A stretch of DNA of 64,000 nucleotides from Halichondria panicea (taxonomy: Eukaryota > Porifera > Demospongiae > Suberitida > Halichondriidae), in contig NC_087391.1 in NCBI RefSeq assembly GCF_963675165.1, positions 4,142,646 to 4,206,645 of the forward strand. The letters run 5' to 3'. Below, in pieces: positions 1 through 64,000 of the stretch. The stretch's first letter is position 1, and every line of letters starts with the position of its first letter. A program made the position numbers and the translations under genes. The notes under the pieces are model-generated. The model worked only from the letters and a program-made list of their open reading frames with translations, was not told where the DNA came from and made no database searches.

Positions 1-178
1 GGTATTATGTTCCATCTGGTAACTACAAAATTAGCATAGGTACATGTATCCTTACGATAAAAAGAAAAGCACACATACACAAACTCGGAGGGTAAAACCA
101 CAGATTACCCCTTGTACATGTAGAAAGTGAATAGAAGGACCACAAATACATAACATTTGCTTTACCATATTACCATAC

Positions 179-42794: not shown

Positions 42795-44432
42795 TTCCTA
42801 CCAAAAAGGCTGTGTAATAATGGCTGCAAATTTTCATACGACGCAGAGTTTGTTCAAGACAAACACCAGGTTGCTAAGACAGCACTAGTTGATGCAGTAA
42901 ATGACAAGTGTGCGTCACGTCGCCATACCATGAAGAGAGCAGTCACTGTGTAGTTGTGCTGTTCGGAACTAAGAGACTAATCTACTTTGTAATACTAAAA
43001 TTATACTATATACTTATAATTATGTCACTGCATGATATAATTGCATTTAATTCCCACTGTTGAACTAGGTTGAAACTACCTTGAAACCACCTTGTTGCAA
43101 CCACCTTGTTGCAACCTTAATAACCAGGTTGAAACAACCTGGTTACAAGCTTGAAACAATTTCGGTGTTGGCAAGGTTGCTGCAACCTTACCACAACCTT
43201 GTAAGACTTGCTTGTTTCAACCTTGCTACAAGGTAGTTATTTCTGTATGGGTATAGCCTTCACACAACAAGTTATTAGTTTTAATAGTGGCAGATTTAGC
43301 TTCGTGTTGAATAAAAGCTAAGAAGCTTGAACTTGCACGTTGGCCATAGATATTACGTGGCTTTAATTCGAGGCACTATAATTATTACAGCCACCATGCA
43401 GGAGTTCATTAAGAGGAATTCCCACGCTCTACGTCTAGGCGTCACTAACACTGTAAACTGTTAGCCATAAATAAAATAGAATGTGGGCTGGGTGGGTGGG
43501 TGTCTGTGTGAAGTCTACCGAGACATCAGCAGTGCTTTCATTATAACAAGAGTTCATTAGGAAGAGTACGCAACTCCAATAGACTGTACACAAAAAGCGT
43601 TCCTCCAGACCTACGTCACAGATGCTGGCTGTTGTAACCGCAACTAGCAGGAAAGGCAATGAATAAAATTAGTAACTATGTTTTCCTACTGGCAGTTGTA
43701 AATGAATAACATTAGTGATAATTATCACAATCATCACAATCATCACTATGTTCATACAACAGCATGTGGTTGCGACATAGGTTGCAAAAAACGCTCCCTA
43801 TGGTTGAGTTGCGTACTCTTCCTTGATTATAATAATTAATGGTGTTTGTTCATTGACAAGTGTCTACCTCTTGTGTCATATACTCAGTGGTATATAGATT
43901 ATTGATTATTAACCCGAGGCGCGTGGGCAGCCACGGGTTATAGTAGTCGTTTGGTTTGTTTGTTTGTGACAGGTGAATCTACTCACCTGGATGCCACAGC
44001 ACTGCGTTTACAGCATGGATAGCCTTCATACAACAAGTTATTAATTTTAATAGTGGCAGAATTTGATGTTAAACCTTCGTTGTCAAATAAAAACGAGCAA
44101 AAGCTAAGAAGCTTGTGACTGGGTCTGCTTACCTGGATGCTCTAGCACTGCGTTTACAGCATGGGTAGCCTCAACACAACAAGTCAGTACTTGGCAGCTT
44201 TCGGTGTTAAAGCTTCGGTGTCTAATAAAAGCGAGCAAAATGTAGCTTGAACAGAACTTGCACATGCGTTACTTATAACTGAAGTGATCCTGTACCAGGT
44301 CCAGAAACAATGGAACAGGGTCACTAAAGTAGAAAGCTGTATATACCAGGAACAATGGAACAGGGTCACTAAAGTAGAAAGCTTGCTTTAGCTGACTGGG
44401 ATCCATGCAGGACCTGGAGCCATACTTCTCTG

Positions 44433-44435
<3 letters not shown>
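42795..44435. other. Non-coding region with degenerate ACCTTG repeats
   Basis: 43060-43250 is an array of loosely repeated ~12-mers around ACCTTGTTGCAACC on both strands. Repeat copies shared with 53700-53900 and 61300-61420 (CTGTTAGCCATAAATAAAAT) occur at 43440 and 43915-44180. No gene seen. Confidence 0.5.
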
Positions 44436-44466
<31 letters not shown>

Positions 44467-46594
44467 AAAGATTTAGCAATTAATTGCAAGGATACACAAA
44501 TAGCTACAAAGCTAGGGTGAAGTGAGTCCTATAACATACGTTTTAATAGTTACAGCATGTGATGTGACTTAAATGAACTTATACTAGTACAGTCTACTAA
44601 AGTAAAGTCCTTGTGGCTAACCAGCCTATTCCATATTGTGATTGCATGCGGAAAAAATGAGAATTTGTAAAAGGATGTTCTACATTGGTAGGGGACCAGA
44701 GTAAAATAGTTAACAGTTCTACTACTGTACGTCATATTTCTCTTGGTTGCTGGGTTGTTTGGGAAGTCAGTTAGATTGTGTAGTATTTTGAAAAGGTGGC
44801 ATAGCACCGCAGCAAGGCGCCTCAGCTGCAGAGAGGGAAGCCTGGTCAAGGTGAGCAATTCTTCACTTTTCAAATTCCATTTCTTCAGACAGACTCTCAT
44901 AGCAAATCTCTGGACTTTTTCTAAATTGTTTATTTCACACTTGTGAAATGGGTTCCATACAGAGGATGCGTATTCCAGATGTGGTCTCACGAACGATGTA
45001 TACAACTTTAACAGTGTTGTTGGAGAAGAATTCCCAGAGAACCTGCGATGTAGTAGACCTATCAACTTCCTTGTTTTATTACAAATCGTATTGATGTGAG
45101 TGTGCCAGCTCAAGTCAGCCGATATGGTAATTCCTAAATACTTGTAGTTAGAAACCTGCTGCAGTACATAACCATTTAGAAGTAGAGTTGGAGCCTTCAA
45201 TGAGCGCGATGTTTTCTTAGAAACGGACATAAACTTACACTTGCCAAGATTAAATTCTAATAATTTAGTGTTCAAAAAATTTGAGACTTTAGAAATGTCC
45301 TTTTGAAGATTCATGTAGTCATTAGTAGATGTGATAACTCTGTATAAGGCCATGTCATCAGCAAACATATTTAGCTTACTGTCTTGAGAAATAACATCTG
45401 TGACTTGGTTTATGTTACGTAATGAACAATAGTGGACCCAAAACCGAACCTTGGGGCACACCTGAGAGAACATGTAAGCTGTCTGAGTTACTGCCATCAA
45501 TACCCACAAACTGTTTCCTCTTCAGTAAGTAGCTATGCACCCAGTTTAGTAAATATTTGTTAAAATTAAGTGACTGTAGATGTTTCAGAAGATTGACATG
45601 GGGGACAGTATCGAATGCCTTTTTGATATCAAAGAAAACTACGCATACTTCATGACCTTGATCCAGGGCTCTACTCCAGTCTTTTATCACCTGTATTAGG
45701 GCTGAGATAGATGAGCGTGATGACATGAAGCCCCACTGCCTTGGAGATATAGGTGCCTGGTCGCACAGGTGTTCCTGACAAAGAGACTTAACGTGTTTCT
45801 CTAAAATTTTGCTTATTGTAGGAAGTATCGAAATTGGTATATAGTTACTAACATGAGCGGGGTTGCCTCCCTTCAGTACAGGAACAACTCTAGCCATCTT
45901 CCAGGCTGCCGGAAAACATCCAGTCGAGATAGAGGAATTGAAAAGAGACGTGAGTGGGGCACTAATACTTGCAGCAGTGCTCTTTAGCATCTTAGCAGCT
46001 ACGCCATCACAACCCATAGATTTTCCAATTACAAGTTTGGTAAGGTCTTTAAATACTTCCTCTTCAGTGCACAGTAACTCTTCAGGACACCCAGAAGGGA
46101 TCATGTTGCCAAAGTGCTCCATAGAGATGTTAGCCTGTAAGGGAGGGCAGTTACGATTGTAACAAGAGTGGAAGAATTTATTAAAAGCTTCAGCTTTGCA
46201 AGTTGCTTGGTCTATAGTTGTGCCACTCTCTTCAAGGGTAGGAATAGAACAAGTTCTCCCATTTAGGGTTTTCACAGTCTTCCAAAATACTTTTTTATCC
46301 TTGGTATTCAATTGGGAGAAAAATTTGTTCTTGCTTTTCCTAATCATTGCCACCACACTATTTCTCTGAACTCTGTATTTCTCCTTATCCCTATGACAGT
46401 TAGACGATTTAGCTCTCTGAAAGTAAGTGTTCCTCCTAGTTATCCCTTTAATAATTTCTCTATTGATCCATGGGGTTTTACTTTTCACCTTGATAGTTCT
46501 ACATGGAATACTGAGTTCCATAATCTGCAGGAATAGTGATTGCCAGGCGAGTACACTGGAGTTAACATCATTAGGATTTAGTTCTTCTTCCCAG
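44436..46594 (-). mobile_element. 5'-truncated, frameshifted CR1/Jockey-like LINE with poly(A)
   Basis: Thirty Ts at 44436-44465 are the poly(A) tail of a minus-strand element. ORF 46521-45415 carries RT motif A (FFDIKKAFDTVPH) and B (SGVPQGSVLGPLLF). ORF 45509-44550 carries C (FADDMALY), YLGITISADLSWHTHI and the YTSFVRPHLEYASSVWNPF region. A one-base loss near 45420 breaks the frame between motifs B and C (LLFI then LRNINQVTD in another frame). The upstream endonuclease domain is missing: sequence homologous to the element stops near 46594. Flanks match the unoccupied repeat at 54460-54490. Confidence 0.88.
44550..46521 (-). pseudogene. LINE reverse transcriptase, broken by a frameshift
   Basis: The two frames of the LINE RT above. 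The palm motifs are readable but split by a -1 change between motif B and FADD, so no functional enzyme is expected. Confidence 0.85.
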
Positions 46595-46595
46595 T

Positions 46596-46836
46596 CTCCA
46601 GGCTTCTTTGCTGTGATCCTAATCCACAGTGCATATATCTATAGTACTACTACCTGTTCTCAAATGTTTCAGCATGCCTCCAGTCTGGTTTAGTTTTATT
46701 GCTCCTGAGTTGCTGTGCAAGTCATGCATGAATGATGATGATAACAACATCACTATATGCACTGCATTATATCAGTCTTCTGGTTTCTTTATAATCATGT
46801 CACCAGCCGAGGGTTTGCACTTTAGTGCTCTAGTTG
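46596..46836 (+). repeat. Repeat copy interrupted by the LINE (right part)
   Basis: From CTCCAGGCTTCTTTGCTGTG to GCACTTTAGTGCTCTAGTTG, this matches 54483-54715. The left part (CTGGAGCCATACTTCTCTGA) precedes the poly-T at 44436. Confidence 0.8.
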
Positions 46837-47270
46837 AACAATTAATGGTGGCCACTATGTAACGTACTTACAAACACTTTTTAGCATGTTTCATGGTCTG
46901 GTAGGTACAGGGTTATCCCATTATGGAAATACAAGTACAGCGGATAAATTTGACAACATTTTAAGTTTGGCGACTTGAAGAATAATTATATAATTTAATT
47001 GCAGATTGTAAATTTACAATTTTATACTGTTAATGACGTTTACGTATCTATTGTATACAAGCCGTAACATTGTAGACATTGTTTTTATATTTTATATATA
47101 TATAATTTATATTCCCTTACCTTATTTTAGAGATATTTTCCAAAGCATCCAAAATATTTTGTCATTGGTTTGACTTGTTTGTATGTTGTGTCAATGTCTG
47201 GGTGAGTGCTAGCACACAGTAAACCACATGTACTGTCAGTTCATGTGCTCCTGTTCAACCAACCATGTAG

Positions 47271-47371
47271 ATATCGAGAACATAGGTGGACAGACTGCTG
47301 CTGATATGGCCAGAGGGTGGGGGTACCATGCCTTGGCTGACTATGTGGAGGGGTTCAGCCTGGACCTAGAG
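47271..47371 (+). CDS. Possible ankyrin-type exon upstream of the Death exon
   Basis: Acceptor CATGTAG/AT and donor GAG/GTGAGT bound a 101-bp exon reading IENIGGQTAADMARGWGYHA then LADYVEGFSLDLE, like a terminal ankyrin repeat. If read this way it ends in phase 0, whereas the Death exon acceptor at 47777 needs phase 1, so an unseen exon must intervene or this belongs to another transcript. Confidence 0.4.
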
Positions 47372-47725
47372 GTGAGTTGACCATCAGCTGTTGTACACAG
47401 TAGTCAGTAGGTATCTACTGAGTTGCATGGTCAGTACAGCTAGATCAGTGGTTTCCGTGTGATGCCGTTCATGCACCTTCCATATATTGTTAAATCTCAT
47501 GCAGTTAATTAGTGATCAGTTTCTTTGAAGGTGCATGTTGGGTTGTAAATAGTGTTGGTCACAATGTCTATAACCTCGATCTAGCAACATTTGCATCCAT
47601 AGTTTATATTATTGCCCTCCGGCAGTTTACTTGTACAGTGCAATACCACATGCAGTGTATGACTAGACAATGACAATGCCTCAGGTATGCCTTCTCAAGA
47701 TCAGTACACTCCATAATTATACTAC

Positions 47726-50700
47726 ATGATCATGAGCCCCTTTGGCTTTAATACTTCCTTTTCTAACTATTATGTAGATCCTCTGTCCTCGTACCCAACA
47801 CTGGAACAGCTGAGTCAGTTGGAATGTGACCAATGGCTTCAACTTGGTGTTCGCTTGGGATTGGGCAATGACCAACTGGAAACCATAAAGAAGAGCCAAT
47901 ATCCCACAGCAGCAACTCTCCAGGCAGCCAAAATCAAGAATATTGACATGCAGTGGAAGGATATTGTGGAAGCTCTAGTGAGCATTGGAGAGTACAAGTT
48001 GGCAGAGAGTGTGTGCACTCAGCAAGGTCAGTAAATGATTGCTCCTGTTTTATTACTAACATTCTTGTATGGGAAACTACTCCGTACTGCAAGCTTGTGT
48101 AGACTTTTTTCTCTTTTGCTGTAGAGTAAACAACCGATTATCATGTTCGAATACTTGTTCTCGAGGACAGCAGCTCAGAGCACTAAGTGGAGTGACAAGG
48201 CCAAACATTCAACTATTCTAGTTCCAACATAGCCACGATTTTTCGAACTCTCTCTCTCGTATCAACAGAAGGCGCTCTAAAGAGATAGCTACAATGCATG
48301 ACCGTAATTTACAACAAGTAAACTATGTACAGCTCTGGTTTCGAGGTCTGACTGCAAGCCGTTAGACAATAGTGGCCTCTTGAAAAAGTGCAGTAGTGCC
48401 ATCAAAATCCAAACGATTAATACCTTTTCTCCATTTTTTCCTAAGTTGCAGTTTTACGTCATGCTACACTGGAAATTATAAAGAAAAGGTATTAATCGTT
48501 TGGATTTTGATGGCACTACTGCACTTTTTCAAGATGCCTCCATTGTCTAACAGCTCGCAGTCAGACCTCGAAACCAGAGCTGTACATATATACTTTACTA
48601 TATAGTTGTAGATTACGGTTATGCATTGTAGCTAGCTCTTTAGAGTCTTCTGTTGATACGAGAGAGAGAGAGCGAAGATTCGTGGCTATGTTTGAACTAA
48701 ATCTGTTCCAATAGTTGATTGTTTGGCCTTGTCATGACCACTCCGCCGAGGAAGCTTTTTGCTGATCGTGGGTTCGGACTTGAATAGAGCCTTACCTAGT
48801 CTATATACCTATATGTACTATCAGCTTAGTGCTCTGAGCCGCTGTCTTCGAGAACAAGCGTTCGAAAATAGAAAATAGAACGTGTTCGATAATCGTTCGT
48901 TTACTCTATTCGTCTGTATTCACGTCTGCACTGTACAATGCAAGTAAACTTAACAATTGTATGCTGTCTTAATTAATTATGCTAACAATACCAACTGCAG
49001 GGGAAGGTGAGAGTGCTCTGTCAGTGAGTGCATACTATGGCTGGCTGGACTGTGTCAAGCGTCTTGTGGAAACTGTGGGCCTCAATCCAAAAGGTGAAAA
49101 TGGTACCTCAAGAACAAGTTTCATGTTCACTCCTATAGTTAGACTGAGCCCACAATAGTCGCTTATCAACATGATCGAGGCTTATTTTGGATAATATTAT
49201 AGTTATTATGACTAATAACTAACTGGGGGCTCAGACAAACAAAAAGCAAATAAGTAGAGCTTGTCTATAAGAGTGAAAGGAAAAAACAATTTCTTGAGGT
49301 ACTGTTTCGTCACAAATACCGTATATGCTTGATCAGGAGCCGCGGCTACTAATATTTCATTTTGCTGGAAGAGGAGGCTACAATTCGAGAGAGGCCACTG
49401 TTCAAGAGCAGCGTTTATTCAACAACCTTTAGTTTGTCATCAAAAGTTCTTTTCACCTGCATAAACTTGAACTCTGCCATGAGAAAGTCTTTGTGAAGCA
49501 CTAACAAGCTGCTACCTGTAACCAACCAGCAGCTACGTACATATAGCTAGCTGCATGCTAGTATTAATAATTTTTTTGGCTGCCATGTTTACTGTTCACT
49601 GAGGCTACTATTTGAGAGCGGCTACTACATATTGCTAGCAAGGGAGGCTACTATTTGAGTGCGGCTCTTATACAAGCGCGGCCTCTGATCGAGCATATAC
49701 GGTACTCCCCTCCAGGTTCAAGGTGTTAGCAATAACAATGCTGATAGTAACCTAGGAAGGCAATGAATAACATAAGTGATAATCATCACTATAATGTTAT
49801 TCGTTGCAAATTTCAGGTTTCCCAGTATATAATTATACAACCTGACTGTGGTTTTGACGTAGACCTATTATGACTTGAAGTGGAGTTGCGTACTTTTCCT
49901 AATGAAATCACGAGGAACAGCAACTAATGTAACCTGCAAAATTAGTAGTGCCGTATCTCAATTGATGAAATTTACTCCATGCTCTCCCCCTTTGGAAATC
50001 ACAGCCTGTTAGACTAGATGCCTCTTTCAGAACACCATCAAGGATCTTTACTAGTGCAGCCATACATTGTGACAAAGCAGTAACTGTGTTCTTGTCATCT
50101 GCTTCAATCTTGGCTTATTAGTCTCCTGCCAAACTATACTGCACCTGATAGGGGGGTTCCAAACTACGAGCGCGCAGCACGAAATTTTTTGGGGGTTACG
50201 CCCACTTTCGGTCACACGTGACTAGGGAAAATCCCATACTCAGCCAGGGGAAGTCCCATAATAGACTTGCGTAGAGCATAGATAGTAGAGGAAGGGGATT
50301 GGAAACACAGGCAATTAGCACTATTTCACACGAACCGTCCTTGCTACAACCTCAATTATAGCCGCGACCATGGATGCAGCTTAAAGTGCTGAGCTTGCAA
50401 TAAACTTGTTGTGCACTAATATAATGGCAGTTTATGAGCTTAAGCAAGCTTATGATCATGCATAGACAACAATGAACAATCAATAAAAGGTAAAGCATGG
50501 TCTAAACATGAATTATCAATGTTCTTCCAGTGATTTGATTTTCTCAGTCCAAGTTTTTGCCACACATCGACACTGCGGTGACAAAATCAGAGCATGAATA
50601 GTGATTTTCAATATCTAATGGGCAATAATATGGACATTGATCTTTAATACTGCCGAGTCTCTAATATAAACTCAGCTTAGTTATGGAGATGCTACCCCGC

Positions 50701-53700
50701 AAAGATGGCTAGTGGAAATCAACAAATCGGCCAATAACTCAAGAAGTATGATATCCCCACTTCCAATAATAATATAGCTCAAGCAATAAAATACCATCAT
50801 GTACTACTACTGTGATCATTCATTTAATAGATGCAATTTATAAGTCAGTTCCTACCCCACAAATAAAAAGAAGAAGCTAAGTGTTGTAAAATCTTCAAAT
50901 TTTGTGTGCTACCAGAGTGAACATGACTTCTAGCTAGTAATAATGTTTCATTTTATACCTAGCCATGCCTCAAGACAAATTTTAGGGCTATTCATACATT
51001 TACTTACCTAGTATATCCTCTCATTTGCTTGTTTTCAAAAGCTTCTTTTGACCTCAAAACCAGTAAAATCACACCTCAAGGTGTCTATTGGTTGCAACGC
51101 GCACGGCCTCACGTTGCAAGCATAAGCTCACATGATCCCGTTTCCAATCCCCTTCCTCTACTATCTATGCGTAGAGCTAGCTAGCTGCCACGAACAGTCA
51201 ACTAGCTAACCTAGGCTAACCTGAACACTCCTTTGGCAGTTCCTGATCAAAACAACAGGTACAATCATTGAATCAAATTACAATAGCTACAAAACTGATA
51301 AATAGCTAGCTGATAGCTGTAGTAAAGCCACAATAGCTAGACTGAAAGGGGGGATCTGTGGCACCCTGGAATCTCCCCTGGATCCGCCACTGACTGTTGA
51401 GATTTAAGTCTGCCCGAGCAAGAACTGTCACAATAGTTTCTTGTGCAGATATATATATATCGGTAGTCGAGCGTACGTAGGGCCGGCGGTAGTGGCTGCT
51501 TCTGAGAGAATTATCAAATGCCACCTGTAGTTCACGTGATGGAAACACGCAGCTGAACCAAGAATGCTATGAATATCATTACGTTCCCAATACATTTAGG
51601 AAGTCCCACGCCCATCGCAAATCCTCTAGAAAACAGCAAAAAGGGGTGAATCAGATTGACTTTAATTGCTCTGAGATTGAGAGAAGTCTTCTCTTGGTAT
51701 ACCAGCAAAGAGTAGAGTCTAACCTTTAATCTAAAAGTCTATTTGTGTTGAGTTTGACCTTCATAAAGTTCTCATAACTTTGTCATACTTCACTGAAATT
51801 CAAAGTTTCATATACCATTCGATTCCTTGTTAAAAAAAGCGCTTCTATCTATATGATGTAGAGCTGGTAAGCTCCTTAAAAGTTAGCATTTTCCATGTAG
51901 AAGTCCCAGGCATACTTGTCAACCACATAAAGCATAAATGAAGCCATAATTGACCACATAACTTCCGGGGTCGAACTCAACGCAAATATACTTTTAACTA
52001 GCTACTCATTAAAAGTGAACGTGATATTTTAGCTATGCAATGCTCAAACTCTCATATTATCGAGTCAAAATACCCTTGTGCAAGAACTTCGTACAGCAAT
52101 ACTTTTCCCACCCCCCTAACCAAAGATTAACGCTATAATTACTGCAATATTGTTGCTAGTGTGATAGGTTGAACCAATTATGTCCGACTTTACAACAGCG
52201 ATTTTGTAACTGTATTATCTACGTAATCGTATGTTTGTTAAAAGTTTTAACCGAAAGTCAAGAGCACAACATCTCAAAAAAGAAAAACAATACAAATTAG
52301 TGGGTATAGTATAAAGTACTGTATAGTGGAAATTTTAGCCAGTGCAAATTTTCACTATTTGGCTCCAGAGCCCTCAGCAGAAATGTTCGTGGGTTCTAAT
52401 ATTCGCATTTTCAATGCCAGGAAACAGCACCCACCAATAGCTTTGCATTAGAAATACCAGTGCGTGGGTATTTAACTATTTTAATTTTCGCATTTTCTGT
52501 CTATACCCTCGAAAAACTTACCTCACGAAAATTTACGTCGTCAAGGCAGTAATTGCACGTCGTCATTAACGACGTGCAATTACTGCCTTGACGACCAATA
52601 ACGGCCGCGGCAAATTTTTTTACTGAAACTGCTGCTAAAAATGTCCTTAACTGAAACTGCATCACAAACGATTAACAATCAATAGTATGGCTACTCATGC
52701 AATAAGGGATTAATAGCACTCATAACAAGCACTGGCAAGGTTAATAGCACTCGACGTATAGCCATACAATTATTATTTTGTAAGGCATACTTAATAAAGA
52801 GTTATAATTATCTTATTTTGCTATACGCACTATTAGAGGTTTCAAACACTATAATGAACCAAAGCATGTGGTGTATGTACAAGCATGTTGATCCAAATAG
52901 TAAGTGTTTAGCAGTGCTGTTAGGTTGTTGATTGGTCTTCCACAGAGCCCGTCAACAAGGCTGGTGACACCCCACTCTCTCTAGCCTGTGCTAATGGCCA
53001 CTCGGACACTGTCAAGTATCTTGTGAACCAGCATCATTGTGATCCTAAAAGTAAGCATTGGTACATAATTATGTACATCAATTGCTGCATCACTCAATAC
53101 ACTCGTACATGTACAGGTACAGTCAACAAGGCTGGTGACACCCCACTCTCTCTGGCCTGTACTAATGGCCACTTGGACACAGTCAAGTATCTTGTGAACC
53201 AGCATCATTGTGATTCTAAAAGTAAGCATTGGTACATATTTATGGTACATCAATTGCTGCATCACTCAATACACTCGTACATGTACAGGTACAGTCAACA
53301 AGGCTGGTGACACCCCACTCTCTCTGGCCTACAAAAGTGGACACTGGGAAGTGGTCAAGTATCTCGCCATCACTCATCACTGTGATACAAAAAGTAAGTT
53401 TGTTCATGGTTGTCAATGAATGACCTGTTGGTTTTATCACACTATTATTCTATAGAATTGCATATTATTATTGATACTGTAGCTGTAAGTTTGGCTCTAT
53501 TATTGGCAGTTTAAAATGCTGCAGGCATAATTATTATAAGTGCAAATGATGTACTGGGACTGACTACCAAGCTAATTGCATGCCATTGGTAATCTTTAAT
53601 CCATGATTCGCCAATCGCCAAGTTTACCCGCTATAAGTTATAGCCTATAGCATATACTACGGGACAGACAGATTGAGGATTGAGGAAAACGGTTCCCCTT

Positions 53701-56700
53701 TTTACTAGATAAAGTTATTAACCCGAAGCGCGTAGGCGGCCTCGGTTACAGTAGTCTGTCTGTGTGTCTGTGTGTCTGTCGCTCAGTTTGGCTTACCTGG
53801 TGCTTTGGGCATCACAATTTGTACGTAGGGAAACTTAAAACTAAGGCTTAAAATTTGGCAGATTTTGCTAAGAAGTCTTTGTTTCGCAGAAAAGTCGAGC
53901 TAAACCTAAGAAGCTTTTTGCGTACTACTAAACACGGCTATTATTTGGAACATTAATTACCCTAAGACCTCGATTTAAGGCGACCCTCCAAATATGCGAC
54001 ACCCAGGAGCTTCAGCAATATTCTGACCTCTAAAAGTGAGCGACAGCTGCGTTGACAAAAAAAAGTAATGTCGCGCTCTAAATAGAGGTAAATATAGCCA
54101 CTCCCTAGCCTCGATTATAGCCCACTGGAAAGTCAGTGTTTTAAGCGGCCTAAAATCGAGGCAAGTAGACTCTATAAAGTTATCTCCAATTAGATGCGAC
54201 CCTATAAATATGTGACACCTGGGCTTCAATATAATTTTTCAACCTCCAAAAGAAGCAACCTCTGGCTTCGTAATTATTAAAAAGTGTTGCTTTAAATCGA
54301 GATCTTACGGTAGCCCAGCTAGATACGGCTATTATTCGAAACATAAGCCAGTAATTACTGTTTGCTTTGTGTGTTTGTGGAAAAGGGTCGATACAATAGA
54401 AAGCTAGAATTGTGTCTGGTTTGTCTCCACATTAGCTGACTCTGGAATCCTACTCCAGGAGCCATACTTCTCTGCATGAGACTCCAGGCTTCTTTGCTGT
54501 GATCCTAGCTAGTCCACAGTGCATATATCTATCTATGTACCACTAAAACCCTGTTCTCAATGTTTCAGCATGCCTCCAGTCTGGTTCCTGAGTTGCTGTG
54601 CTAGACAGTTAAGTCATACATGATATTCATCACTATATGCACGGTATTATATCACTCTTCTGGTTTCTTTATAATCATGTCACCAGCCGAGGGTTTGCAC
54701 TTTAGTGCTCTAGTTATTATTATTATTTTTTTTTTTTCATGTAATATCAAACAGTACAAATGTACAAAAGCAAAAGATAAGAGGGGGGGGCATACAGTTT
54801 AGCGGATACCATCTGCTGAAGTAGGTAAAGTTTGTTGGCGATGAAGCCACAGGCAGGCATTTCCTCTCCAAAGTGCAATGGCCAGGCGATGAAACAGATG
54901 CTTCTTGGTGGAGGATGTGGAATGTGTCATGGTTACTCTCCGGTCGATGGCATTTCTGATGGCACCTATGATGTTGATTGTTTCTTCACCTAGACCTCCT
55001 AGTGTTTCTGCCACAATGGGAATGAAGTTTACACCTATGGAGCGGCAGGCCTATATGGGTGGTGAGCTTGCGCCTAACTCCAACTTCTAGGGTGTGTCCA
55101 GGGGAGAAGGCAGCTTCATGAATGAGGGTTTGCTGGAGCGGTTAAATTACATGGACGTCCAAGGCAGCGGGTCTTGACAGGGATTCTGGGATTAAACCTT
55201 GGGCCTCTTGGGATGGTTCGAGAGCTGCAGATTGAGCGGCTGAGAAAATGACATCTCTGACCGCATTGTGGTGGGTGATTCTGTCTCCATTTCCGCCACA
55301 GCCAACTTGATGGTCACCATATTCGTCGGCGGAGGTGCGACATGCTGGGCAGAGGTGGGGGGCACTGTGGAGAGGGATGCCGAGCCAATATTTCAAGCAG
55401 CTGTTGAATTCCTTGTTCTGCATGTGGAGGCCAAGCACATCTGCTGGCACCCCGTTCAACCAATCTCCAGCATGGGGTAGAGCAGACGAGTTTGCCAAAG
55501 CACGAGCCCTGGTTGAAGGTGAGAGGTTTTGGTACATGGCTTCATCAATGGCACAGGACAAGTGGCGCTGACGTAGAGGGATGTCTATGTCATCGAGATT
55601 GAGCCATTCAGGGTGGGAAGAAGAGGATGACAGGGCACTCACAGCTTATTCAAGATAGGCGTCCAGATTGGTCGGGCGATTAAGGATACGTTCCAGGGTC
55701 TTGGTGGAGGCAGCTGAGGAGATGAAAGCTGCAGGGGCATGTAAGACAGCACTGCGGAGGTTGAGGCCGCCACGGTTGCTTGGTAGGGAAGTTTTCTGCC
55801 ATTGATTATCAGCAATCACTTGGTAGAGAGTATAATTATATTGAAAATTTTCAAGAGCCCTCAGAAAAAAATTGTTGTGGGTTGTGTTTAATGCCAGAAA
55901 ACCACACCCACCAAGACCTTTGCATGTGAAATACCAAGAGTATATGATATAGAGAGAGTATCAATGATATAGAGAGAGTATCAAACGTAGGCATACTGTA
56001 CATCAGATGTATGCGGAAAGTAACGTGACTTCCTGTATCTGTTACAAGCTTGGAATTTGCACACTGACCAATCCAAGTGTGGGTGATGTAATCTATCAAG
56101 TAGATTACATCACTTGGATGGGTTGATAGATTACATCACCCACACTTAGATTGGTCAGTGTGCAAATTCCAAGCCTACGTTTGATACTCTCTCTCTATCA
56201 TAATACTCTTGGAAATACCAATGCATAGGAGTTTCTCCCAGTTTTAATATTCGCGTTCACTACTCTGCCCTAAAAAAGTGCACTTTACGAAAATTTCCCG
56301 CTCTACATGCATGGTGTGTATTTTTTGATACAGTTGAACAATTGAATTCCTTCTGTACAGGGGTGGAGGAAGAGCACCTTTATCAAGAAGCCATCAAGAA
56401 CGATCGAACAGTGTCTCTTCGCTACCTCAAGCTCCTTCTTCTTGGTCCTGGCCAAGTTGGAAAGTCAACCTTTCTCCGTAGACTTCTTGGTGAAATGAAA
56501 TGGGACATTGACTCAGATCCAAAACCTCATTGTAGCACAGAAATGGCTCGCTTACAGCAAGTATGTATTAAATATACTCCTATTGCTGCCGCTGTTACTA
56601 CGGATGGTTGGCACACTATTGAAGAATTACACAATCAAGTTGCCGTATTAACCTCAATGTTGGTGAATGAACAAGTGCATGTTAAAGAAGTTGGTAATAC

Positions 56701-59700
56701 CAAGTTAACAGAATCCCAGAGAATAAACAATCCTGAAGAAGAGTCTCACCAACCTCAAGTACAATGCAATAGTCATTCAAGTGCTTTGCCACTAACCAGT
56801 ACTCAGGAACGTCTGGGAGCTACAACCTCAACTTACAATCTAAAATTGGATTATAAATATCAACAAGATACATTGTCTCCAAACAACATAGCAAATGTTC
56901 TCGATAAATATAAAGAGCTAAGACACAATTTGAAGCTAAAACCACAAATTTTGATCGAGACCCTGCTTAATATAGTGGATGTAGGTGGGCAACTAGCATT
57001 TTTGGATATGTTTCCATCATTAACAATTGGTCCTGCTATGTACTTGGTGTTCATGAAGCTCCTAGACGGATTAGGAACTGAACACCCTGTAACGTTTGTC
57101 GATACAGATCCAATTGTGTGCAAAGAGTACACTTACACATCAGAAGATATCATTTTCACTGCTCTTTCAAGCATTGCATGTTTTGGAAATTCGGATGCTG
57201 AGGTAGAAGAATACATAGCGAGTGACAACAAATCAAACAAACTTTCAAGTTCAATAGCGTTATTGTTAGAAACATTTAAAGATGAATACTTGGAAGCAAC
57301 GAAAGAAGTCCAGTTAGTGGTTGATCGAAACGAAACAGAACTCAAAACCCGATTAAAGGACACTGGTCTTCATAATATAGAATACTATGACCGAGAAAAA
57401 GGTCATATCTTTTTGAACAAAAATGGAGAGATTGCTACTTATCGAAAATGTCTTAAAGAATTTATACCATTGTTTAAGAAACTGATCATAAATATCTCGA
57501 TTACTAACAATTCTCCTTTGCTTATGGGAAACTACAATATAATTACATTACCAGACCTCAGTGTAAGTCATCTAGTAACTGAAACAAGAAGTAAAGAAGA
57601 AACAAAGAGCAAAAAGAAGAAAAGTGGATTTGTACCTCCAAGAAGGCAGATATTTCTATTGTTGAAGCGTCGTCGTAAACGAAAGATAAGAGGCAAACAA
57701 AGTGCTTTGAAAGCACGGCCATTAAGTGATTCTGAAGATGATAAAAACTTGCCGGATGTAGTTCAAGAAAAAAGCCTTAAGACATTAAAATCAAGAATGC
57801 AAATAGTAACAATATCCAGGTATACTGATCCCCCAAAGTTGAAAGGTCATGTTTCTGCTAAACTTGCATATTTAGAGTCTGATTCAAACAGTCAAGAAGA
57901 AGATATAGGCAACCGAACTGACATTTTTGCTACTGATCAATGCTCCTCTGTTAAAATGGATCTCGTACACAATTGCCAATATTCATATTCAGAAGAACCA
58001 GTTGCACAAACAAGGCAAGCCCTGTTATCCATGAAAGGGACAGCTATTTTCAGAGTGGGGGCACCTTCAACTGAACTAGAATTTAAGCGTCTGCGGGTCT
58101 CAGTCAATGTTCAAGCATTCTATTTGTTGATCAAGCGTGAGAAATCAGCTATAGTCACATACATTTCTACTGAAAACAAACAAGAACTGTATTGCTTTGA
58201 AAATCGAGGATTGGGTAGGAAAAAGAAACCAGTTTACAGAGTCACATCTGAGGCTGAAACATTGTACGATTTCTCCAAGTCTGCAATAGTTCATGGATCA
58301 TTTTCAAAACGAAACTTAGTGGTTATCAAGGAATTGGAAACACCAAAAAGTAACTTTGTTGGTATTCCATCACATGAGAAACTTAGTCAGTCCAATATTG
58401 GATTAGTAGATCATATATCTACCTCTGAAACATCATCACAACAACTCTATAGCTCAGAACGTACTGACTCCATGAGACTTCCTACATTGGCTGCTGCAAA
58501 TAGCTTAAGCACGAGTTCACCACCTGTAGCAGCAGAATCTCCAGTTAAAAGTAAAGGTGTAAGAGGAAGGGTACAAGTAGATGGTGAACAAAAGGCCTCA
58601 TTGAATGCTTCTATTCCACGAGCAAGTACTATAAGGACAAGTGAGAGGACAAGGGAGAGAAACTCTCCTCGCGAAAACGACAGTAGCCTACAGCGAAGTA
58701 TCCCTACACGAAGATCACCTGATTGGATTGCCATAGCAACTAAACTTCTTCATGTTCCCGACTATCAAAAAATGATACAGATTCTCAATGGTGTCACACC
58801 AGCTCAGGAAGATCTTGTAGCTCATAAATTCATCAAGGGAATTGCTTACTTCAAAGTTGGCAAGTTACGACAAGCAATGAGTGACTTACACGAATGTGAG
58901 AAATTTGCTTTAGAATCCATTGAAAACGAAAGATGTGCACACTCTCAAAGCCAATTGGATAGAGGAGTATTTTCAATGCAACCATTTGGATCACAGGCTT
59001 CCCCCCAGGCATCAAGTTTGCAATATTTGCAACAATCATCCAAAAAAGGAGACGTTGCTGTTTGTAATGTATACATGGGAGATCTGCACTATACTTCAGG
59101 CTCCTATCTTGAGGCATCGAAATGTTATCAACGAGCGGCCGATTTGTATGATAGAGAATGTGTAGCAAGACTGTTCAGGATGGTTCCCCCCACCATATCA
59201 ACAATTCACTCGAAATGTGGCAGCTGCTTACGCAATTTGTCCAAATCAATGGAGGCCATTCAAGAGTACAGAAATGCTATCGAGACAGCCATTAGAGACA
59301 AAGACCGTCTTGCTGCTCACACTAGCCTTGGAAACCTCCAACAGACTCTAGGTCAGAACAAAGAAGCACTGGTAGAGTATGAACATGCCCTTGATCTAGC
59401 AGAGAAACTCAATGAACACATGTCAGTTGGTTGGACTCATGGGAATATTGGAAATGCCTTCCTCGGACTGAATGAAAAAGACAAAGCACTATTTCATCTT
59501 CAAAAAGCCCTTGATATCACTATTAAGTACGAACCTAAACCAGATTCTATAGGAAGAGCATATAATAACCTAGGCACTGCCTACCAGTCAATGGGTGACC
59601 TTGACAAAGCTGAAGAACACTATGACCTTGCTTTAAGTCAGGCTATCTACGGCAATGACCCAGCTGGACAATCCAGGGTTTATGGAAATATCGGAAACAT

Positions 59701-62700
59701 ATATATTGTCAGGAAACGTTTTGAAAAAGCTATCCCTCACTACACCGAAGTGCTTCGCCTCTCCAAAGATGAGGCTACGATAAGCACCGCTCACCACAAC
59801 AGAGGATGTGCACTATATGAGTGGGCAGAGAGTAAAATGCTTGCTCTAGAACAATCTTTACAGAAAAATTCCTCAAGTAACGAGCCAACATTTCGATTTC
59901 ACGGATCCCAAACTACACTTCCCCAAAAGCATAGTCCTCGTATTGTGATCGATAGCATTGCCAAACTCTTCAGAGATGGAATGTCAGATTTGCAAAAGGT
60001 TGCTGAAACTCACGAAGCAAAACTTGACCACATCAAAGGATCAGCCAAAGGACTTTCACTTTCAGTCTCCCTCACAGAGTCAAATTCTCGCACTTTTCAT
60101 CGCTTACAGGACTGCATGGTCGCCATAGGCAACTGGAGGGAGGCTCTTCTCATTGCTGAGCAAAGCAGAGCTCGTACGCTCGGCGAAATAATGCTTGCAC
60201 GGAAAGAAAGTCAACTTGAAAAGGCTCTTACCTCACCACTAAACCTGGAGCATGTGTACTCCATTGTGAGCTCACAAAAGTCTCCTGTTCTCTACCTCAC
60301 CCACACTGGAGCTAGTCTGTTTGGCTGGGTGCTCGTCCCAGCTGAAGACAGTGACAGCATTTCAATCGAGATGTTTGAAATTCCCATATCAGATGACCAG
60401 TTCAATGGAAAGAGCTTCGATTATCACATCAGATATGGCCTTACAGAGGTCTTGGTGGAGCAGAGCTATGAGATGTATCGCAGCATCGATTATGATGAAG
60501 AAACTACTGCTCCTGTTGCTCAACTCTTCAAGGTCATTGGTAAACCCTTTCAAATGACTCTTGACCGACTTCTTCCAGGAAACAAGAAAGCAAAAATGCA
60601 AAAGATTGTTTTGATTACTGATACTTACACCAGTCTATTGCCATTTACTTGCATGTACGATCCAGACAGTGAAACCTTTCTTGGTGATCATTATTATTTT
60701 GAAACCATGCAATCTTTGTTGACAATGGGTATAATGAATCAGCTCCCAGAACCAATGGTTGAATTACCAGCAGATCCACAAAGTATGTGCATTGTGGGAA
60801 ATCCCATCATTCCCAAATTTTACCTTAATGGTGAAGTATGGTCCCTGGGGAAACTCCCTTATGCAAGACGAGAGGCTCAGTGGGTGGGGCATATCCTGAA
60901 CACTCCACCTATTCTGGACGAGCAAGCGACCAAAAGTGCTGTCGTAATGCGATTCATGAGAGCCAAAGTGATTCACATAGCAACCCACGGCAGCTCAGTC
61001 TCGGGTTTCCTAGCATTTGCCTCACTCACCTCTACCAGACAAGGGGAGGGGGTTGACTCCAGTGGAGTACTGCTGCACCCGGAGGAGGTGGAGAAGCTCT
61101 CCATCAGTCCAGCTCTTGTCGTTCTCTCCAGCTGTGACTCCTCAAGAGGTACCGTGAAGGCGGACGGTGTGCAAGGGATGGCAAGAGCATTTTTGTTGGC
61201 AGGTATGTATATACTATGATGTACTTATGGTATAAGTATAATACGTAAACCATAATTATATGTATGCTAGAAGAGTAGGTATATGTAATTGAATACATAA
61301 AGAGGAGTATCTAATTCCCACGCACATTCCATTCTACATCTTGGACTAAATCCCTGTCACTAACACTTGTATGTATAAACTGTTAGCCATGAATAAAATT
61401 AAATGTGGGCTGGAGGTACAAACCACATGTGTGTGCGCTGATATCATTTTTAACCACGACACCTACGCACCACTTAAGATGAGGTCTGATAGTGACGTGG
61501 TATGACATACTCGTACCGTAACCTGGTTTACACTACAACTGCTACAGTTGGATACTCTTCTTTATGTACTCCTGGTATATGTAATTGAGTACAATAAAGG
61601 CTGCTACTAAATTAAGTTGTTTTTCTGCAGGTGCACAAGCTGTGCTCACCGCTCTGTGGAGGGTGCCTGACGAATCTGCAGCTGTATTCATGCGTTTCTT
61701 TTACCGGTTCCTTGAAAATGGGTTTGAGAGCTCCCTCTCACTTCAGAAGGCAATCCTCAGTTTGAGATGCTTCTCCAAGTACTCACAGTACATACATTGG
61801 TCCGGTTACCAGCTAACAGGGAGATCCATTCGTTTGGATATGAAGCCGTCTCCAGTGACGACTATATTAGAGAGTACCCTGAGGCCAAGCTCTCCGTTTC
61901 CTCGGCTCATGCTAGTCAAGAAGCTGGAGAGTGTGTTGGTGGATAATCCAAGACTACCCACTGATATTCAGGTTCGTAATTGCCAATCACTCTCAGGCTA
62001 ATTACTTCAGTGGTTCATGAGCCAGATCTCACCCTAGTGTACTGAACAAACTTGCATGTGTGGTGTATACTATATAAGTATTAATTGTGACGGATAAAAC
62101 AACTGTTTGGACAGCAATGTTACAACTTTTTAGTCACTGTTTGCTCAATACGAAATAATTATACTTCAAAAATTAATTATGAATATTGGTTGAATGTAAC
62201 CAGATTCTTCATGGATCTCCTGGAGTAAAGCCATCTGAAATTGCCATTGACTTCATTCACTCTTGCCACGCTAAATTTGCAGCTGGCATTTTCTGGATCA
62301 GCTGTCGCACACCAGACATCATTGACGCCAGTCTGAAAAGCATTGAGAAAGTGAGTGAATCGACAATCACTGTGTTACCACACCCAATTTCAAGCTGTAA
62401 AGTCACTGTATGAAGTGGTGGTATAAAAAGAAAGAGGCTTAATTACATGTTGTGACTGATAGACAAGCATCACTAATATGATGCCGCTGAATAGGATAAT
62501 AATCGTAATAGGATAACAGAGACAGATTGCTTACTAATTCTTGTAAGTTCGTATACAGTTCACGATACATCTGTTAAGGACATACGTTGATAAGTACAGG
62601 GAATTTGAAGATCGAAGTGACTTACAAAGTGTTTGTGAAGTGACGTGTTTTAATATAATTATTTTGATGATGAAGTAGGTAGGTCTAGGTTAATATGTTG

Positions 62701-64000
62701 TGTAAAGCGCAGAGATTCCAAAGCCTTACTACGTGACTGAAATAGAAGTGACAGGTGGTATTGTAGGCAGGATTAAATGTTTAGGGGGGGGGCTTTACGC
62801 ACGGTAGCGCGCCGCAAATTTTCCCGCTTTGTTGACTTCACCGTTATATCACAGTATTACAGTCTATAGATAGAGTCTACTTTCTACTTAATGGTTACAG
62901 GTTGCATGCAGGTATATATAGCGTTAATAAATGTATTGCATGCAGACAATTGACAAGCCTCTGAACAAGCTGCGACTTAGTGACACACAGCAAGCATTGG
63001 TGGTCCTGGACAATACAATTGAACTGCCAAGCTCGGGAAAACTGATCAGCTTCCTAAAGCACACAAACGTTCACATCATCATTCTGTCAAAGTCAGCAGA
63101 TCCCCTCGACTTTTTCGTAAAAGAAGTTGATAAAGCCTTGATCAGAGGTTGCAGTATACACGAAGTGAAAACACTCTCAACAATTGACTCCACCCAGCGA
63201 ATCGTGTACGAAATCTCCAAGCAGTACTATCTAAAAGCAAACAACAATGATCAAGCAATCTTTGAGAAGTTGGCTGAGTTTACATCCGGCTCACCCCTAA
63301 TTGTTGATATAGCCGCACAAGTTCTGCTCAAGTATGTGCAAGAGAATTCTGACGAACCTTCTGAAGGTCTAAACCAATTTGCCGATTCCATTCAGCTTTC
63401 AAAATCTCGGAAAGTTGTCCATAAATCTCCTCCACTGGCAAGTTTTCTTCAAGGAGTTGAAGATACATGTTTTCAAGTGAGGGAAATTTCAGATGCATTC
63501 ACACACCTTGTTTCAAACGTCGCCAGTGTCTCGCCGAATCACACAGATGTGTGGGAGTCAGAGAGTAAGTATGACTCTTGGGACTCGATCGGAGCCTTGA
63601 TCCAACGTTGCGTATCCACTCCAGGAGAAATGTTGCTGCTTCAAGCCCTGTCCATTTTTGGTTGTATACCAATTCCAATTCCTTTGGTCACTACCATGTC
63701 CTCCCTGATAGCTCAGTCATCAGGTCACTCACACTTGGGTGGAATCTTGCATGAGCGACTAATGGAGGCAAAGTTGATATTAAGGTATCCCCAGCCAGTT
63801 GTTCTTCATTCTACTTACACTAAAGGTGACAAAGCCAGTGAAGAGCCACTTTTCTTATACCTTCCTCAGCACTTGGCTAGTCAGCTGTGGCTATGTAATG
63901 ACATCGATCAAGTAATGGCTGTAACAGTTGCATACAAAGCATTGCAAAAGGTTATCGACGAAAATTCATCAAAAAATCCAGAGCTCTTACATTTTTATCT
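47726..64000 (+). CDS. Death-ankyrin-GTPase-TPR-CHAT-STAND multidomain protein (3' end outside window)
   Basis: Exons 47726(or 47778)-48026, 49001-49093, 52946-53050, 53117-53221, 53289-53393, 56361-61202, 61631-61971, 62204-62350, 62946->64000; all phases agree, at least 2364 residues from the ATG at 47726. In order: Death domain (about 25-95, QWLQLGVRLGLG, WKDIVEALVSIG); four ankyrin repeats (101-236); GTPase with GPGQVGKST (265-273) and DVGGQ (443-447), G4 not seen; a disordered basic stretch (KSKKKK, KRRRKRKIRGK) and an unassigned beta-rich segment; about eight TPRs (1020-1500); CHAT domain with HIATHGS (His1779, codon 60986) and LSSCDS (Cys1828, codon 61133); then an NB-ARC/STAND-like ATPase with a degenerate P-loop GSPGVKPS (1968-1975), LVVLDN (Asp2035) and FTSGSPLIVDIA. 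The protein could bind a ligand, switch on nucleotide and release CHAT proteolysis. The start is uncertain: 47778 also has a good acceptor. Confidence 0.82.
48124..48906. mobile_element. Large foldback element, arms over 300 bp
   Basis: Left arm starts GAGTAAACAACCGATTATCA; right arm ends TAATCGTTCGTTTACTC. Matching blocks include TCTCGAGGACAGC/GCTGTCTTCGAGAAC and the central AAACGATTAATACCTTTTCT pair. Lies in the intron after the Death exon; no ORF. Confidence 0.85.
50276..51170. mobile_element. Element with perfect 31-bp terminal inverted repeats
   Basis: GCATAGATAGTAGAGGAAGG opens the left end (50276-50306); the exact complement closes at 51140-51170. About 895 bp, non-coding, between ankyrin exons 49001 and 52946. 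The motif GGGGATTGGAAAC recurs in other elements of the window (19175, 28808, 40070). Confidence 0.8.
52537..52595. repeat. Perfect 27-bp inverted repeat with 5-bp loop
   Basis: GTCGTCAAGGCAGTAATTGC... (52537-52563) and its exact complement (52569-52595) flank CATTA. It lies about 350 bp before the ankyrin exon cassettes, next to a TACCGTATAG-family remnant (52310-52530). Confidence 0.9.
52936..53400 (+). repeat. Three tandem exon-intron cassettes each encoding one ankyrin repeat
   Basis: The units repeat every 171-172 bp (exon starts 52946, 53117, 53289). Each has a 105-bp phase-1 exon beginning ..VNKAGDTPLSLA and an almost identical intron (GTAAGCATTGGTACATA, then ATCAATTGCTGCATCACTCA). 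The third exon has diverged more (YKSGHWEVVKYLAITHH). Confidence 0.92.
54460..54715 (+). repeat. Second copy of the repeat hit by the LINE; serves as the empty site
   Basis: Reads GGAGCCATACTTCTCTGCAT then GAGACTCCAGGCTTCTTTGC without interruption where the LINE sits at 44436-46594. Ends GCACTTTAGTGCTCTAGTT, directly followed by another poly-T and retroelement fragment. Confidence 0.8.
54719..55840 (-). pseudogene. 3' fragment of a non-LTR retrotransposon RT protein
   Basis: Poly-T at about 54725-54738 is the tail. On the minus strand the protein reads LPSNRGGLNLRSAVLHAPAA, a stop, then WLNGVPADVLGLHMQNKEF, a Cys/His cluster (CPAC..GDHQVGC..RITHHNAVRD), another stop plus frameshift near 55020-55145, then HLFHRLAIALWRGNACLWLH. 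This is the C-terminal region after RT of a common invertebrate LINE group. 5'-truncated and dead; a different family from the element at 44436. Confidence 0.75.
55925..56215. repeat. Nested inverted repeat
   Basis: TTGGAATTTGCACACTGACC at 56049 and its complement near 56150, and the inner TCTATCAAGTAGATTACATC, form a foldback, with an outer GAGAGAGTATCAAACGTAGG pair at 55970 and about 56177. Lies just before the 56361 exon acceptor. Confidence 0.75.

Follow-up and report, generated by a model that had tools for sequence, protein, structure and literature searches.

Does a single sponge gene encode one protein in which a Death domain, ankyrin repeats, a GTPase, tetratricopeptide repeats (TPR), a CHAT protease and a STAND ATPase follow one another? 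The question is raised by positions 47726 to 64000 of a 64,000-nucleotide stretch of the 131 Mb genome of Halichondria panicea (contig NC_087391.1, abbreviated C15; C15:4142646-4206645), referred to below as the window, where a first-pass annotation made from the sequence alone had read all these parts as one chain. Our analysis of this gene, called copy A to tell it from its paralogues, supports the core of the idea, namely that TPRs and CHAT, an NB-ARC/STAND-derived part and a Roc-type GTPase occur together in one animal gene, because the open reading frame (ORF) is unbroken, three copies share the same splice sites and purifying selection is evident. Copy A is a real gene, and its core is new among animals within the literature covered. 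The six-part chain may exist but is unproven, and it is weakest at its two ends: what stands in front was inserted recently, and the presumed ATPase looks dead.

The predicted product of copy A is a protein of 2408 residues encoded by nine exons whose frames join in phase. All eight introns are of the GT-AG type, with phases 1, 1, 1, 1, 1, 1, 0 and 0, which bears out the earlier claim that frames and splice phases connect the parts. The Roc GTPase, the TPRs and most of CHAT lie in one stop-free frame of 1671 amino acids (56204-61219, measured from stop to stop), and a second copy, B, carries the same uninterrupted GTPase-TPR-CHAT ORF of 1659 amino acids. The notion of a single protein from Death to STAND holds, at the level of the gene model, from the GTPase onwards, where the long ORF is predicted to splice to exons 7-9, whereas the linkage of the Death and ankyrin exons to it is possible but unproven. 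The features of copy A are as follows.

47726-48026, plus strand: exon 1, marginal Death-like domain (Pfam PF00531, 18.5 bits, below cut-off); donor GTCAGT, phase 1
49001-49093, plus strand: exon 2, ankyrin repeat 1, called by eye; splice sites, phase 1
52946-53050, plus strand: exon 3, ankyrin repeat 2 (Pfam ankyrin; splice sites)
53117-53221, plus strand: exon 4, ankyrin repeat 3 (Pfam ankyrin; splice sites)
53289-53393, plus strand: exon 5, ankyrin repeat 4 (Pfam ankyrin 0.0006, just below cut-off; splice sites)
56361-61202, plus strand: exon 6, Roc GTPase, linker, TPRs and CHAT to model position 223 (ORF, Pfam, splice sites)
56363-57469, plus strand: Roc-type GTPase domain, COR missing (P-loop GPGQVGKST, DVGGQ; likeness to gene D, described below, ends at about 57469)
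58712-60170, plus strand: TPR region, limits approximate (Pfam TPR_12, 7e-30)
60512-61202, plus strand: CHAT, model positions 3-223 (Pfam 2.2e-25; alignment to 8rot_B)
60986-60988 and 61133-61135, plus strand: codons of His1779 and Cys1828, within CHAT
61631-61971, plus strand: exon 7, end of CHAT, model positions 219-288 (Pfam 3.2e-11)
62204-62350, plus strand: exon 8, degenerate NB-ARC P-loop, HGSPGVKPSE replacing Walker A (hhalign to a bacterial NB-ARC-TPR set; similar in paralogue E)
62946-64130, plus strand (window ends at 64000): exon 9, remaining NB-ARC/STAND-like region (LVVLDN Walker B, GSPL); stop codon at 64131, 131 bases past the window end

Searches with profile hidden Markov models (HMMs), which the first-pass annotation had proposed as a check, divide the chain: CHAT, the TPRs and the ankyrin repeats match, Death, Roc and G-alpha are weak, and NB-ARC/STAND gives no match. 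The central part is the firmest. Pfam CHAT (PF12770) is matched in two pieces, at 90.1 and 43.7 bits against a cut-off of 24, which are split across exons 6 and 7 and meet at model positions 223/219, the second lying in an ORF at 61585-61998. The TPRs in exon 6 match Pfam TPR_12 at 7e-30. The catalytic residues are exactly those named earlier, His1779 in the motif ATHG and Cys1828 in VVLSSC, and both motifs also occur in paralogue E and in all four cyanobacterial TPR-CHAT proteins fetched. A search of Protein Data Bank (PDB) chains with the CHAT domain placed 8rot_B, a 'CHAT domain-containing protein', first (E 5.2e-5), with separases next at 0.68-0.82. By its sequence, the CHAT domain of copy A, its His/Cys dyad intact, is a predicted caspase-like protease. 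A scan of prokaryotes with the CHAT profile returned 32 pattern matches and confirmed none, the peptide patterns used being poor, and a scan against NCBIfam recovered TPR-type models, a weak small_GTP match (0.008) and a chance match to spore_sigI (0.0024).

Could this domain serve, like human TTC28, as a scaffold in cell division or the cytoskeleton rather than as a protease effector? We consider this improbable. In its favor, TTC28, in humans the putative homologue of the TPR-CHAT proteins of corals, has been linked to cytokinesis in the sections cited of a study of those proteins (PMC12314368). Against it stand the affinities of copy A itself, whose TPR-CHAT part scores 207, 207, 198 and 192 bits against the four cyanobacterial proteins (those fetched among 25 plasmid records with a match) and 95.9 bits against a Halichondria protein on contig C8 (L022-L023, C8:1514270-1518934). 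This C8 protein, which we call putatively TTC28-like from its architecture rather than from comparison with a TTC28 sequence, has an alanine at the CHAT cysteine, which is kept in A, E, a CHAT gene on contig C5 and the four bacterial proteins. Copy A as a TTC28 orthologue was rejected, given a separate TTC28-like gene that is further from A than the cyanobacterial proteins are. The parallel with TTC28 drawn in the first-pass annotation therefore survives at the level of the TPR-CHAT arrangement and goes no further.

The C-terminus, exons 8 and 9, is probably an NB-ARC-derived domain, recognizable by remote homology. A tblastn search of plasmids with the corresponding part of paralogue E yielded three records, none better than chance (E 0.7-5), whose best matches cover residues 4-68, 4-68 and 4-40; annotated TPR proteins account for two of these matches, and Pfam assigned AAA_16 and sub-threshold NB-ARC to two of the three and TPRs only to the third. 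These three direct matches and six relatives, fetched from 25 listed records, made up a nine-protein bacterial NB-ARC-TPR alignment, to which a profile of A and E was aligned by hhalign at 97.1% with a score of 84.3 over 267 columns starting at the P-loop (the E-value of 4.8e-11 is a single-target one). Without the three proteins picked by direct similarity, the values were 96.9% and 80.7, and single sequences scored 65.7 and 56.4 (A alone) and 63.8 and 64.4 (E alone). Among the controls, reversed profiles gave 15.6 and 15.2, the maxima of 40 column shuffles were 26.5 and 30.7, and the CHAT profile gave 16.9; the Roc profile reached 37.9 (43 columns) and 38.9 (13 columns), both at the P-loop. 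The bacterial GLGGIGKTSLV aligns with GSPGVKPSEIA of copy A, with proline in place of the Walker lysine. The Walker A pattern GxxxxGK[ST] is absent from A and from E (GVHGLKPSEPV), and none of the four copies of the gene, A, B, C and E, retains the lysine; the Walker B motif LVVLDN is present in all four, aspartate included. The domain is probably no ATPase, because the Walker A lysine is lost in every copy, and we read it as NB-ARC/STAND-like, probably incapable of ATP hydrolysis. An active STAND ATPase was rejected on the degenerate Walker A motif, so that of the earlier 'NB-ARC/STAND-like ATPase' the remote homology is retained, profile to profile, and the enzymatic activity is unsupported. 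Animal NLRs combine an active NTPase with leucine-rich repeats (LRR) or similar sensor repeats; in copy A the P-loop is lost and the Pfam scans contain no LRR. Pfam on paralogue E returned one unrelated weak match (Stealth_CR1, 0.0087).

The TPR, CHAT and STAND-like parts are the core of a four-copy family. CHAT matches in the genome amount to 10 rows at six places: one gene on C5, the TTC28-like gene on C8 and four genes on C15, namely E (on the minus strand at the left end of the window), A, B and C. Across the genome, the STAND exon turned up at the four C15 genes only. Paralogue E occupies the following position.

165-3787 (and L010), minus strand: paralogue E, TPR and most of CHAT; its CHAT end and STAND exons run beyond window position 1

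E runs in the opposite direction to A, and its TPR, CHAT and STAND exons are 29-58% identical, depending on the piece. Residue identity between A and B is 97.6% in the long exon, alignment with C begins at about codon 450, and exons 7-9 have the same donors and acceptors in A, B and C. Between A and B, codons 901-1671 (TPR and CHAT, the last few being intron) show 41.5 synonymous (Sd) and 11.5 nonsynonymous (Nd) differences, with p 6e-18 in a test of neutrality for which the changes were rounded to 42 and 12. The downstream exons follow: exon 7 has Sd 5 and Nd 0, exon 8 has Sd 2 and Nd 1, and exon 9 has Sd 25 and Nd 16 on 274 and 911 sites (dN 0.018, dS 0.097). The comparison of A with C shows a pattern like that of A with B. 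Judged by these substitutions, copies A to C are under purifying selection in the TPR-CHAT-STAND core. Near B, about 4 kb upstream, an 872-residue ORF on the plus strand (L013:1205-3820) has no Pfam match and contains, by eye, a P-loop-like GMAGTGKTS.

The GTPase in front of this core has a traceable source. Its P-loop and DVGGQ motifs are clear, and a Roc P-loop and DxxG are present across a seven-sequence alignment; by HMM, copy A matches G-alpha at 0.004 and Roc at 0.053 (14.2 bits, below cut-off). A genome search with the GTPase region returned 114 matches (191 first-look candidates, 109 scored), and the closest outside A and B is gene D, a 731-residue ORF about 0.2 Mb from copy A (C15:4398484, minus strand; L024:7443-9635) that is 90% identical and in which Pfam places COR-A after Roc (E=2e-6, 28.2 bits, under the 35.3-bit cut-off). 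The DNA of A and D is 91% identical over a stretch that opens at 56212, within the intron preceding the Roc exon, and breaks off sharply near 57469, at about codon 421, before COR. No COR follows Roc in A; the frame continues past this point into a linker that, further on, is shared with C. Because the similarity to D starts in an intron and ends sharply at about 57469, we conclude from the alignments that A and B acquired Roc as a copy from a ROCO gene resembling D, truncated ahead of COR. Copy C yielded no Roc, nor did the pieces of E that were read. Over the 364-366 Roc codons compared no stop has arisen, and gaps among A, B and D are whole codons; on these grounds either the frame has been maintained or the capture is young. 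Between A and D, Sd is 15, Nd 38 and omega 0.70. An immunoglobulin-domain ORF lies about 7 kb upstream of gene D (L025:6549-6884, minus strand; Pfam Ig_3 2.2e-7).

The Death and ankyrin exons have a different history. They lie in a 7.9-kb block that was copied, introns included, from a Death-ankyrin array on contig C5 and that is flanked by mobile elements.

46834-54722, no strand assigned: block holding exons 1-5, copied from the C5:6.67-7.11 Mb Death-ankyrin array, same-strand DNA 82-96% identical
43905-46836: nested interspersed elements left of the block; the inner one, 44436-46597, has many copies 96-99% identical and some 82-85%
45415-46638, minus strand: 407-residue ORF inside the nested elements, presumably a reverse transcriptase
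48192-48734: palindromic stretch of about 540 bp in intron 1, 83% inverted self-match, also in the C5 copies
50277-51169: interspersed element inside the block, copies mostly 86-93% identical on many contigs
54714-55801, minus strand: interspersed element in intron 5, which separates exon 5 from the Roc exon, with matches on C8, C12, C4, C16, C3, C6 and C5; its minus-strand ORF presumably resembles a reverse transcriptase

Same-strand identity of positions 47500-53500 to C5:6.67-7.09 Mb is 87-96%, and further matching sequence reaches 46834 on the left (93%, one C5 copy) and about 54722 on the right (82-90%); the ends fall at query position 3335 of 43500-47600 and at 1342/1343 of 53380-56380. 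A 240-bp stretch of the left element recurs at 54478-54714 (82%). Exon 1 has 58 matches in the genome, 34 of them above 100 bits and 26 of these 34 on C5; 12 of the 34 contain in-frame stops. Searches by tblastn detected no Death or ankyrin exon upstream of B, in the 27 kb that separate it from the end of A, or in the 10 kb upstream of gene D, and sequence shared by A and B begins near 55800. The block therefore probably arrived after the Roc capture, as the sequence comparison suggests, unless it lay outside the A-B duplication. A Death-ankyrin front as an old part of the family was rejected, being missing upstream of B and D and 82-96% identical to C5 DNA. As for the domains themselves, the four ankyrin repeats hold up in part (Pfam 1e-19, in two ORFs over 52924-53419, with repeat 4 below cut-off and repeat 1 read by eye) and Death is only marginal, its 18.5 bits comparing with a cut-off of 22.6. 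Exon 1 is weakly similar (25-26%, E 0.001-0.005) to four clear Death domains (43-46 bits) at C15:1.01-1.06 Mb; a phmmer search of PDB chains with it returned no death domain, only two designed repeat proteins (0.018, 0.033). The 'adaptor port' that the first-pass annotation had seen in the Death domain is thus a recently inserted block, seen only at copy A. At least 150 Death-domain matches (scored of 503 candidates) and 114 Roc-like matches occur in the genome, many in open frames of 750-1100 residues.

Is the front nevertheless translated with the rest? That the full 2408-residue Death-ankyrin-Roc-TPR-CHAT-STAND chain is real, with the C5 block having supplied promoter, start codon and N-terminus, strikes us as plausible, at somewhat less than even strength. 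The block sits in the same orientation with intact splice sites, and every intron is GT-AG and in phase; the phase match is weak evidence, since the ankyrin introns and the Roc intron are all phase 1. The Roc exon has no in-frame ATG ahead of its P-loop, the first methionine lying in GEMKWD, so that an upstream exon is needed to translate Roc whole. A Death-ankyrin front followed by a GTPase exon also recurs, 8 of the 34 Death copies, A included, being followed on their own strand by a GTPase exon at a distance of 2-12 kb, a count made with hand-chosen lists (34 Death copies, 41 of 114 GTPase rows and 12 of 24 rows of a second list, the GTPase rows mostly from contigs bearing Death copies). 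One of five loci found through the second list was read (L038), and there an ankyrin-like start, under cut-off, is joined to a Pfam Roc (6.6e-7). On the other side, the block is recent and flanked by mobile elements, upstream of B's copy of the Roc exon neither Death nor ankyrin was found, 26 of the 34 Death copies lack such a GTPase in the lists used, and 12 carry the in-frame stops mentioned above. In an alignment with six other copies, the Death exon of A shows too few changes of its own to gauge selection on it.

The explanation we prefer, with confidence somewhat above even and on the strength of sequence comparison, is a conserved core of TPRs, CHAT with intact His/Cys and a lysine-less NB-ARC/STAND domain, to which a captured Roc was added in A and B and onto which the Death-ankyrin exons at A could be spliced. 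A bolder version, which we hold tentatively, makes copy A one 2408-residue Death-ankyrin-Roc-TPR-CHAT-inactive STAND chain with two recent N-terminal captures and with the dead STAND as a ligand reader instead of an ATPase, a one-chain sensor-to-protease. In that version Roc would come from the neighboring ROCO gene and Death-ankyrin from the other contig via mobile elements.

Several observations weigh against these interpretations. Copy A is known here from genomic sequence alone. Pfam found no NB-ARC or NACHT family in the spliced product of copy A up to E=5, and none in the separate exons; a two-sequence STAND profile matched no PDB chain at E up to 10; and PADLOC recognized TPR models only. 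Structure prediction, suggested as a check, was run with AlphaFold on STAND exon 9 and on Roc, and gave mean predicted local distance difference test (pLDDT) values of 36.4 and 31.6, too low for a usable fold comparison in either case. Between A and B, Roc shows Sd 4 and Nd 18, with omega 1.25 on 22 changes and neutrality p=1, and its ratio of changes differs from that of TPR-CHAT (Fisher p 3e-6). The earlier P-loop/DVGGQ GTPase is thus upheld in its motifs and in its Roc likeness to gene D, and its function as a switch is unsupported, no constraint being seen between A and B. The same lack of constraint favors a further alternative, in which A is transcribed from a start within the linker, a possibility for C and E too, leaving TPR-CHAT-STAND as the working protein and the Roc exon as a passenger. 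The failure to find Roc at C and E fits it too, as does the leucine that A and B have after GGQ, where the other five of the seven aligned Roc sequences have proline. Against a passenger stand the stop-free Roc codons and the whole-codon gaps described above, and we regard a start in the linker as rather unlikely.

On the preferred reading of a conserved core, a regulated caspase-like effector may be envisaged by analogy. The TPR solenoid and the inactive STAND would hold the CHAT site closed and recognize a ligand or partner; binding would open it, in the way that the TPR-CHAT protein of Craspase opens on binding RNA, and the opened CHAT would then cleave a downstream protein. The choice of the partner by which the protease is recruited or triggered would fall to the N-terminal modules: Roc and, in A, possibly Death-ankyrin. 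The sequence shows the anatomy of the gene, the selection on it and where its parts came from; we infer proteolysis, activation, the splicing of exons 1-5 and, as proposed earlier, an immune or cell-death role, the immune role by analogy.

How does this architecture compare with known systems? As the first-pass annotation had supposed, no animal protein with all these parts emerged: neither a TPR-CHAT-STAND nor a Roc-TPR-CHAT animal protein was found in searches of the open-licence PubMed Central literature. Metazoan TPR-CHAT proteins, including the coral expansions and human TTC28, share the long TPR array followed by one CHAT and spread by tandem duplication; two Acropora corals have 276 and 304 such genes where most animals have one or two (PMC12314368), and a Pocillopora paper names TPR-CHAT among genes diversified in corals (PMC6208414). 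They differ in that no C-terminal STAND or Roc is described for them in the sections cited, and copy A is closer to the cyanobacterial proteins than to the TTC28-like gene of its own genome. The Craspase of type III-E CRISPR systems likewise joins TPRs to a CHAT with a His/Cys dyad and is gated by binding, the residues of the buried dyad being separated by about 7 angstrom, a distance that shrinks to about 3 on RNA binding (PMC9729208). Its gate is a gRAMP RNA complex, and the sections cited name no STAND or GTPase for it.

Upstream of the core, the likeness is to genes of the same genome. ROCO and Death-ankyrin-Roc genes share the Roc P-loop and GGQ, gene D having Roc with COR-A and L038 an ankyrin-like part with Roc, whereas A and B are without COR and have Roc fused to TPR-CHAT. 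DAPK1 is a close system of the same kind. Shuffling of ROCO exons is described, in the part cited, for brown algae (PMC11378527). Death/TRADD-N expansions in another sponge, Amphimedon, have Death-like N-termini and variable C-terminal domains such as ankyrins or caspase in the sections cited, and the word CHAT is absent from the main text of that source (PMC8195603); the likeness lies in the Death-like N-termini. The Halichondria locus itself displays stepwise capture of N-terminal modules, with C and E lacking Roc, A and B having it, and A alone having Death-ankyrin exons upstream.

At the C-terminal end, the nearest counterparts are bacterial. In the portions cited of two papers, iSTAND ternary conflict systems join a STAND with a dead NTPase to caspase-like peptidases or Death-like domains (PMC7159879, PMC8195603), and Kaur et al. 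propose inactive STANDs as nucleic-acid receptors (PMC8195603). Those systems are bacterial and three-component, with MoxR-vWA, whereas in this animal gene CHAT has the inactive domain fused to its C-terminal side. An NTPase-dead STAND beside a protease is a bacterial theme, and the TPR-CHAT-inactive-STAND core of Halichondria would be a case of it in an animal.

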